A stretch of 64,000 bases of DNA, taken from an uncultured Pelagibacteraceae bacterium (GTDB lineage: Bacteria; Pseudomonadota; Alphaproteobacteria; Pelagibacterales; Pelagibacteraceae). The stretch is from contig CACNCN010000001.1 in NCBI GenBank assembly GCA_902618975.1, positions 1 to 64,000 on the forward strand, in the 5' to 3' direction. The notes under the pieces were generated by a model. It ran no database searches and was not told the origin of the DNA. It saw only the letters and a program-made list of their open reading frames with translations. Both the position numbers and the translations under genes were made by a program. Shown piece by piece: positions 22,932 to 26,000 of this stretch (position 1 is its first letter; each line of letters starts with the position of its first letter).

Positions 22932-23954
22932 TTATGAACAATCCTTTAAAGAATTAGACATGTCTTTTATAAGTTGAAAATACATGCTCTTGCCTTTATC
23001 TATATTTGCCCCTAATGGATCAAGAACACCGGTTTTAACACCTGTGTCACTTGCTATAGAATTTATTATATTAAGGTTAAACTGTGGTTCAGAAAAAATA
23101 CATTTTGCTTTTTCATGCTCTATTACTTCTCTAATTTCAGATAATTGCTCTGCACCAGGCATCACATCTGGATTAACTGTTAAAGCCCCAATTACATTTA
23201 TACCAAATCTTTTTTCAAAATATTGATAAGCGTCATGGAATACCACAAAGCTCGCATCTTTGTTAATTTCATTTTTTACTTCTTTTATAAGACCGTCTAA
23301 ATCTTTAAGAAGTTTTTTTGAATTAGCTTTATATACAGAACTATTATCTTTATCTATTTTGCTAAGTTGATTTGTTATTTTTTTTACAATTACTTTAGCA
23401 TTTGATGGATCAAGCCAAATGTGTGGGTCATACTCACCATGGGCATGTCCATGTTCATCATGTCCGTGATCATCGTGATCATCTTCCTTTTTACCATGTT
23501 CATCATGATCATCATGGTCGTCATGATCATCTTCTTTTTTGGCATGCTCATCATGACCATGTTCATCGTGATCATCGTGACCTTCGAAAATATTTTTTTC
23601 TCTAAATTTTAGTTTTTTTAAACCACTTTGATCTAACAATTCAAAAACAACAGCATTTTTTGGGATACTTTTTAATGCTGAAGGTAAAAAACTTTCTAAA
23701 TCCTCACCTACCCAAATAACCAGGTCAGCTTTTTGAAGCATTTTTGCATGAGATGGCTTTATTTGAAAATTATGTGGTGAAGCAACACCATCTATTATTA
23801 GATCTGGTTCTCCGACACCCTCCATAATATAACTAGTTAATGAGTGCAAAGGTTTTATAGATGTGACAACGTTAATGTCAGCTTTTAAAGGTGTCAAAAT
23901 TAATAATATGCCTGCTAATGGACCGAATAGTAATGATTTATAAATTTTTTTCAT
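22932..23954 (-). CDS. znuA: zinc ABC transporter substrate-binding protein with His/Asp-rich loop
   Basis: SIKPLHSLTSYIMEGVGEPDLII, long HDDHDEHGHDEH loop, YDPHIWLDP, next to Zur-like operators and znuCB. Confidence 0.95.
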   Translation of the reverse strand: MKKIYKSLLFGPLAGILLILTPLKADINVVTSIKPLHSLTSYIMEGVGEPDLIIDGVASPHNFQIKPSHAKMLQKADLVIWVGEDLESFLPSALKSIPKNAVVFELLDQSGLKKLKFREKNIFEGHDDHDEHGHDEHAKKEDDHDDHDDHDEHGKKEDDHDDHGHDEHGHAHGEYDPHIWLDPSNAKVIVKKITNQLSKIDKDNSSVYKANSKKLLKDLDGLIKEVKNEINKDASFVVFHDAYQYFEKRFGINVIGALTVNPDVMPGAEQLSEIREVIEHEKAKCIFSEPQFNLNIINSIASDTGVKTGVLDPLGANIDKGKSMYFQLIKDMSNSLKDCS

Positions 23955-23974
23955 ATAATATCTCCTTATAAATT

Positions 23975-24021
23975 TGTTATAATATAACAGTGTTATAATA
24001 TAACATTGTCATAATACAAGG
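23975..24021. promoter_or_regulatory. tandem Zur-box-like operators (two perfect 15-bp copies plus one degenerate)
   Basis: TGTTATAATATAACA at 23975-23989 and 23991-24005; TGTCATAATACAAGG at 24007-24021; 16-bp phasing; between znuA and znuCB-zur. Confidence 0.85.
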
Positions 24022-24029
24022 ATTTAATA

Positions 24030-24776
24030 GTGGAAAGTTCAGATAATTTATTAGTAAAAATGGAAAAGGCCGGGGTTTTTATAAATAATAAATGGTTGGT
24101 TAAAGATGTTTCCCTTGAAATAGAAAAGGGTAAAATAATTACATTAATAGGTCCAAATGGGTCTGGAAAAACAACTACTGCCAAAATGGCTTTGGGTTTA
24201 TATAAAAACATTAGCGGAAAAGTTGAAAAATTTACAAAAAAAATAGCTTATGTCCCTCAGAAAATCTCAATTGATTGGACTTTGCCTATAAGAGTATTTG
24301 ACTTTATGAATTTGACTTCGGATTTACAAGACCAAGAAATAAATGAAGCTTTAGAAATTACAGGTGCAAAACACCTTTTAAATAATGATTTGAAAAGTTT
24401 ATCTGGTGGTGAATTTCAAAGAGTTTTAATGGCACGAGCTGTAGCAAAAAAACCAGATTTATTAGTTTTAGATGAACCTGTACAAGGAGTAGATTTCACA
24501 GGAGAGATTGAACTATATGAATTAATAAAAAAAATATCTGAAACTTTGAAGTGTGGAATTTTACTGATATCTCATAATTTACACGTTGTTATGTCTAAAA
24601 CCGACCATGTAGTATGCCTTAATGGTCATGTCTGCTGTTCAGGAACACCCATTTCTGTTGCTAATAATAAAAAATATCAAGAATTATTTGGTGAAGATGT
24701 TTCAAAAATATTATCTATTTACGAGCATAAGCACGACCATAAACATGGTGTAGATGGATCAGTTGAGGAAAATTAA
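24030..24776 (+). CDS. znuC: zinc ABC transporter ATP-binding protein (GTG start)
   Basis: GPNGSGKTTTAKM, LSGGEFQRVLMARA, VLDEPVQGVD, His-rich C-terminus HKHDHKHG. Confidence 0.94.
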   Translation: MESSDNLLVKMEKAGVFINNKWLVKDVSLEIEKGKIITLIGPNGSGKTTTAKMALGLYKNISGKVEKFTKKIAYVPQKISIDWTLPIRVFDFMNLTSDLQDQEINEALEITGAKHLLNNDLKSLSGGEFQRVLMARAVAKKPDLLVLDEPVQGVDFTGEIELYELIKKISETLKCGILLISHNLHVVMSKTDHVVCLNGHVCCSGTPISVANNKKYQELFGEDVSKILSIYEHKHDHKHGVDGSVEEN

Positions 24777-24778
24777 AA

Positions 24779-25582
24779 ATGTTTGATGATTTTTTTATAA
24801 GAGCATTATTTGTAGGTATTGGTATGGCTCTAGTTACTGGACCTTTAGGTTGTTTTGTTGTTTGGAGGAGACTATCATTCTTTGGAGATACTTTAGCTCA
24901 CTCGGCTTTGCTAGGAATTACTATTGCATATACCATGGAAATTAATATTGCATTATCTGTTTTTATTGTTTCCTCATTAGTAGCTTTGATGTTGCTAAAA
25001 TTGGAGAAAACAACAAATTTACCAACTGATGCTTTATTAGGATTACTTGCCCACTCTTCTCTTGCAGTTGGGTTAGTTGTTATTGGATTAATAGCAACAA
25101 TTCGATTTGATTTAATGGGTTTATTATTTGGAGATATTTTAGCTGTGAATGTAAACGATATTATAATTGTATGGTTTGGTGGTGCATTAATTTTATTGGT
25201 TTTAAAATTAATATATAAACCGCTTTTTGCATCAACGGTTAATTACGAGCTTGCAGAAGCAGAGGGAATGAAACCAGAGAAAGTGAAGGCAATATTTACA
25301 TTGCTACTTGCAGCAATTATCGCGATTTCAATTAAAATGGTTGGATTATTATTAATAACTGGAATGCTTATTTTGCCTGCTGCAATTGCCAGAAATATAT
25401 CTTCAAATCCAAAAGGTATGGTAATTTATTCAGTTATTGCAGGTTTAATGTCTGTATTAATAGGTTTATTCAGTTCATTAGAAATAAATACACCTTCAGG
25501 CCCATCTATTATAACTGCTGGTTTAATATTGTTTGTTTTATCATTAATTAAAATTAAAAGGAGTTCTCAATTGAAAAGCTAA
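24779..25582 (+). CDS. znuB: zinc ABC transporter permease
   Basis: GPLGCFVVWRRLSFFGDTLAHSALLG, ABC-3 family membrane protein. Confidence 0.95.
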   Translation: MFDDFFIRALFVGIGMALVTGPLGCFVVWRRLSFFGDTLAHSALLGITIAYTMEINIALSVFIVSSLVALMLLKLEKTTNLPTDALLGLLAHSSLAVGLVVIGLIATIRFDLMGLLFGDILAVNVNDIIIVWFGGALILLVLKLIYKPLFASTVNYELAEAEGMKPEKVKAIFTLLLAAIIAISIKMVGLLLITGMLILPAAIARNISSNPKGMVIYSVIAGLMSVLIGLFSSLEINTPSGPSIITAGLILFVLSLIKIKRSSQLKS

Positions 25583-25589
25583 CTTTTCA

Positions 25590-26000
25590 TTGATAAAAGA
25601 AATTATGGCTCAAAAGCAAGGATATTTATCAAAAAATCAAAAAATAGTTTTGGATTATATTGAAAAAGCAAATCAGCCCTTAAAAGCATACTCAATTTTA
25701 TTTAATGTTCAAAAAAAAGGTCTTAAGGCTCCACCTCAAGTCTATAGAGCTTTAGATAGACTAGTTGAAATAGGTAAAGTACATAAAATTGAGAGTAAAA
25801 ATGCTTTTGTAGCTTGTAAAAACTCTAGTTGCACAATTTCTAATGCAACAGCCTTTTCTATCTGCGATGGTTGTGAAAAAGTTACTGAAATAAGTAACCC
25901 TAAATTATCTAAATATCTATCTGGTTTTCAGGACAATTCAGGTATGAAGTATAATAAATACAATCTTGAGTTCTTTGGATTATGTAAAAAGTGTAGATAA
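25590..26000 (+). CDS. zur: Fur-family transcriptional repressor Zur
   Basis: Fur-like winged helix PPQVYRALDRLVEIGKVHKIES; CxxC pairs (CDGC, CKKC); downstream of znuCB. Confidence 0.9.
   Translation: MIKEIMAQKQGYLSKNQKIVLDYIEKANQPLKAYSILFNVQKKGLKAPPQVYRALDRLVEIGKVHKIESKNAFVACKNSSCTISNATAFSICDGCEKVTEISNPKLSKYLSGFQDNSGMKYNKYNLEFFGLCKKCR

Follow-up and report, generated by a model that had tools for sequence, protein, structure and literature searches.

The 75-bp gap enclosed by the divergent start codons of znuA and znuC (positions 23955-24029) in a 64,000-nucleotide stretch of DNA from a SAR11 ocean bacterium (Pelagibacteraceae), hereafter called the window, is very probably a shared Zur operator with two boxes, on both of which zinc-loaded Zur would sit and repress both promoters, while a degenerate third repeat would have no operator role. 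The box pair lies in the predicted promoter region of the zinc-uptake genes (Table 1), and its assignment as a Zur operator is well supported by sequence comparison.

Table 1. Genes and repeats of the znu region (positions in the window).
Feature	Position	Strand	Sequence or family evidence	Remarks
znuA, periplasmic zinc-binding protein	22932..23954	-	NCBIfam NF007091 278.5 bits, above cut-off; PF01297	
Zur box 1 (predicted)	23975..23989	.	TGTTATAATATAACA, perfect 7-1-7 palindrome	kept in all znu-bearing SAR11 relatives examined
Zur box 2 (predicted)	23991..24005	.	TGTTATAATATAACA	TGTAATAATATAACA in most of the genus, 18 bp from box 1
Degenerate third repeat	24007..24021	.	TGTCATAATACAAGG, 11/15 match	non-conserved, and not counted as an operator; 3' part is the conserved CAAG element
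znuC, zinc ABC transporter ATPase	24030..24776	+	best NCBIfam family NF007090 269 bits (cut-off 306); PF00005	
znuB, zinc ABC transporter permease	24779..25582	+	best NCBIfam family NF007089 224 bits (cut-off 284); PF00950	
zur, Fur-family zinc-uptake repressor	25590..26000	+	best NCBIfam family Zur NF008646 71 bits (cut-off 167); PF01475	

The proteobacterial Zur-box inverted repeat TGTTATA-N-TATAACA (7-1-7) is found without mismatch at 23975 and 23991, and TGTTATAATATAACA equals the central 15 bp of the consensus published for proteobacteria, GAAATGTTATA-N-TATAACATTTC (PMC4219657). The two boxes follow each other with a period of 16 bp, which leaves a 1-bp spacer. An earlier note on this DNA had reported two exact copies of TGTTATAATATAACA, a third copy at 11/15 matches and an array of 47 bp within the 75-bp gap, and all of these were recovered as sequence at the positions given in Table 1. 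The TGTTATAATATAACA pair is the sole exact 15-mer tandem at an offset of 15-25 bp in the window, and boxes 1 and 2 are its only perfect 7-1-7 palindromes to lie 15-25 bp from each other; in 40 windows simulated under a first-order Markov model, the expected numbers were 0 and 0.025 per window, respectively. Taken singly, perfect 7-1-7 palindromes are frequent (18 observed vs 16.3 expected), so that the signal resides in the identical tandem pair and in its conservation among relatives. TATAAT is likewise frequent in the window (78 occurrences on the plus strand and 88 on the minus strand, at 28% G+C) and by itself carries no signal.

The GTG start codon of znuC at 24030 aligns with the ATG starts of its relatives. 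The three plus-strand genes almost abut, so that zur, which closes the znuC-znuB-zur operon, is probably transcribed together with znuCB. A long His/Asp-rich loop with DDHDDHDEHGKK-like repeats was observed in znuA (23402-23605 of the window); such a loop is typical of zinc-binding ZnuA proteins, and its length differs among relatives. In a published survey, znuA was present in about half of the SAR11 genomes and had a Fur-family gene in its region in every case (PMC4771312). No published account of SAR11 Zur boxes was found in the literature searched.

In 26 of 37 genomes of the genus, znuC, zur and the box pair were all found, and the other 11 had none of the three; as many of these genomes are incomplete and the three elements lie together, this co-occurrence reflects linkage and joint loss and is not independent evidence. 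The expectation of phased box copies in relatives held for the genus, all 26 znu-bearing genomes having two boxes (that is, at least two Zur boxes in one promoter region), and failed for the sister family, which has a single box. Of the 80 rows in a ZnuC tree, 38 had two boxes at 18 bp, 23 two boxes at 16 bp, and 19 one box, the latter comprising all 17 sister-family rows and two outgroups. All rows with 16 bp fall in a single clade (SH-aLRT 95); the row closest to it, L071, has 18 bp. The simplest history suggested by this tree starts from a single box, continues with a pair at 18 bp and ends with the loss of 2 bp to give 16 bp, a direction that hangs on the two long-branched outgroups. In a wider set, a near-perfect box pair (16-24 bp apart) was detected in 175 of 300 genus genomes, with the 16-bp form in only 11, and the 18-bp tandem pair was detected across the class in 1 of 289 genomes, that one being SAR11.

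Spacer bases vary among relatives (eight different trinucleotides in the 18-bp group, three different single bases in the 16-bp group), as do the distances from the boxes to the flanking genes, whereas spacer length never varies within a clade. The spacing therefore appears to be under constraint, even though its value differs between clades, and this constraint may come from Zur-Zur contact or from promoter geometry. These comparisons support the proposal of a predicted Zur-type operator array with more than one box at fixed spacing, common to the divergent znuA and znuC; they give no support to a 16-bp period (1.5 turns) that would hold in general, given the 18 bp of most of the genus, the single box of the sister family, and the 21-bp spacing of the boxes of a SaoD/DsrE-family gene in some SAR11 (see below).

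From the sequence, gene context, co-occurrence, conservation, spacing history and Zur residues, we infer Zur binding, repression, dimer number and cooperativity as follows. When zinc is sufficient, zinc-loaded Zur dimers would bind the two 15-bp boxes and cover both divergent promoters, with repression of znuA on one side and of znuC-znuB-zur on the other; with zur in the repressed operon, Zur would limit its own synthesis. When zinc falls, Zur would be released and uptake derepressed. The second box would most likely confer tighter or steeper repression. In a review of Zur regulons, double boxes are considered most likely independent and a means of tighter repression, and their significance is called unclear (PMC6103462).

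The name Zur is based here on context, contact residues and fold, and not on the NCBIfam Zur model, whose equivalog cut-off was not reached by the window protein (71 vs 167 bits), although this is still its best family. The AlphaFold model (mean pLDDT 82) gave as best matches holo-XcZur (7dh8) and the EcZur-DNA complex (4mtd). The base-contacting residues of E. coli Zur at its box, Tyr45 and Arg65, have equivalents in 21 of 21 aligned Zur proteins (Y34 and R53 in the window Zur). Equivalents of the structural-site Cys4 and of the regulatory residues His77, Cys88 and Glu111 (E. coli numbers) are also present, and the regulatory-site His96 seems, from the alignment, to be replaced by Cys81. C76 and C81 were observed in 18 of 18 aligned SAR11 Zur proteins, and His at the His96 position in three other alphaproteobacteria; a changed zinc affinity is a possible consequence of the apparent His96 to Cys replacement.

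In E. coli, two Zur dimers load on one such box, joined by Asp49-Arg52 salt bridges, and protect about 31 bp (PMC4219657). According to the residue alignment this link is not present in the window Zur, which has F/Q at the two positions; the two-box genus has F or Y with Q or K, and the sister family with its single box has S with Q, K or N. As Asp49/Arg52 are missing from the Zur of one-box SAR11 too, the second box is not explained by loss of the link alone. SAR11 Zur may have exchanged the salt bridge for another dimer-dimer contact across two tandem boxes (16 or 18 bp), a rather unlikely scheme that points to the position of E. coli Asp49, where two-box lineages have a hydrophobic Phe and one-box lineages Ser, at present one contrast between two families; if it were true, box duplication and the Zur interface would have coevolved. 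It is also unlikely, and slightly more so, that each box receives an E. coli-type dimer of dimers, giving four dimers per pair: E. coli does place two dimers on one TGTTATA-N-TATAACA core box (PMC4219657), but with about 31 protected bp for each assembly, centres 16 bp apart should clash. Given the missing Asp49/Arg52 link and the lack of room at 16 bp for two 31-bp dimers of dimers, each box is more likely to be occupied by one dimer.

The earlier note had described a triple array, and here the comparison of relatives went against it. The third repeat reads TGTCATAATACAAGG (11/15) in the window, L054, L072 and L144, TGTTATAATACAAGG (12/15, left half intact) in L053 and L141, and TTTCAAAATACAAGG (9/15) in L051, L052 and L135, all these strains having ZnuC 98-99% identical to that of the window (99% in the last three); strains with 94%-identical ZnuC have no match worth the name, and the third copy is missing in the other relatives examined. 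A search of 397 genomes of the order returned no triple box array. The right part of the repeat is a CAAG motif located in most relatives 4-12 bp from the last box. With a probability of about 0.001-0.003 for an 11/15 match at one fixed phase (simple composition models), the repeat is somewhat better than random, yet it is not conserved, and it is best read as chance or as an incipient partial repeat. A true three-site phased array, with three Zur dimers loading cooperatively at 16-bp intervals, could draw on this low probability, on the 12/15 copies and on the trimer-of-dimers Zur-DNA structure known for Streptomyces coelicolor (7vo0), but it is made improbable by the 9/15 copies of near-identical strains, the unmatched 94%-identical ones, the absence of triples in the order and the conserved CAAG motif in its right half. 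As a candidate operator, the third box was rejected in view of the strain polymorphism and the failed search for triples.

Binding of the pair not by the znu-linked Zur but by one of two other Fur-family proteins, responsive to iron or some other metal, would accord with the three Fur-family genes found in the genome and with the 7-1-7 boxes that SAR11 iron-uptake genes also carry (PMC4771312). We consider it very improbable, as the box, znu and zur are lost together, the two other Fur-family genes are on a different contig, and the Zur-specific Tyr and Arg are retained; Tyr45 is described as contacting the central TATA and as a residue that marks Gram-negative Zur but not Fur, and by this TATA the Zur box of E. 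coli is said to differ from the box of Fur. Least probable of all is a second box that is a functionless neutral duplication made by replication slippage in AT-rich DNA, for although the two window boxes are identical and AT-rich palindromes are common by chance, two boxes occur throughout the genus, with a stable different second box (TGTAATAATATAACA) and fixed spacing.

Both perfect copies had been said to contain TATAAT and perhaps to double as -10 elements in both directions. TATAAT is present on the plus strand only, and the minus strand has TATATT, TATTAT or TATAAC there. A standard promoter scan found no promoter in the box array, and -35/-10 elements were not placed consistently by a comparative scan over about 80 loci. 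Overlap of Zur operators with the -10 region is known from several Caulobacter promoters (PMC4176598), which makes a box serving as -10 in one direction reasonable, and doubling as the -10 of one gene is plausible by this analogy.

Further candidate Zur targets were observed elsewhere. In some SAR11, near znu or at another location, a SaoD/DsrE-family gene (NF040913, about 196-200 bits) is closely preceded by perfect or near-perfect Zur boxes, which lie next to a TTGACA/TTGACT -35-like hexamer; there are two boxes with a 21-bp spacing at L131:1501-1935, L158:1402-1833 and L159:1480-1911, and a single one at L054:4541-4956, L091:1733-2148 and L134. This gene, absent from the znu region of the window, is a probable further Zur target in some SAR11. 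In L054 (AG-907-A13) and L091 (AG-896-M10), the zur gene is only 79% identical to that of the window, against 98-100% for znuC, and is followed by the SaoD/DsrE-family gene, which suggests that the zur segment was locally replaced; each znu box of L054 has one changed base. In the genome of the window, the three remaining matches with at most 2 mismatches fall within unrelated coding sequences or at their margins, namely those of the DNA polymerase III alpha subunit, of a transaldolase-like gene (close to its end) and of an aroQ-like gene (at its end, ahead of a biotin-carrier gene). Because control patterns matched equally often, the three were treated as chance.

The two-box znu operator proposed here would provide a testable zinc-regulation switch for very abundant ocean bacteria with few transcriptional controls. 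The natural series of one box, two at 18 bp and two at 16 bp, together with the matching Zur proteins, would make the purpose of a double box measurable.

Among known systems, the Caulobacter znuK/znuGHI region (PMC4176598) has a very similar box, GATGTTATATCATAACAAT, between divergent zinc-uptake genes and overlapping the -10; it is a single box with other transporter genes, whereas SAR11 have two boxes between znuA and znuC. The E. coli znuABC operator (PMC4219657, PDB 4mtd) shares with SAR11 the core palindrome, the divergent znuA/znuCB arrangement and a homologous regulator, but two cooperative dimers occupy one core box there via Asp49-Arg52, in contrast to the two boxes of SAR11 and a Zur without both residues. 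Two Zur boxes per regulatory region are also found at S. coelicolor znuA and B. subtilis yciC (PMC6103462) and at P. aeruginosa czcR (PMC9827704), the two boxes of the last being bound independently (PMC9827704); these belong to other phyla or genes and are without the rigid 16/18-bp tandem of SAR11. The zur/znuA promoter of Paracoccus denitrificans (PMC5387054) is, like that of SAR11, an alphaproteobacterial divergent zinc-uptake promoter with two 15-bp Zur motifs, both bound by Zur in a zinc-dependent manner, and it gave the tightest Zur binding among the promoters tested (PMC5387054). Its motifs, unlike in sequence, are located 2-16 bp ahead of zur and 36-50 bp ahead of znuA, whereas the window boxes are identical with a 1-bp spacer. 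As predicted from these sequences, the SAR11 znuA/znuC region is a well-conserved addition to the known multi-box Zur promoters.
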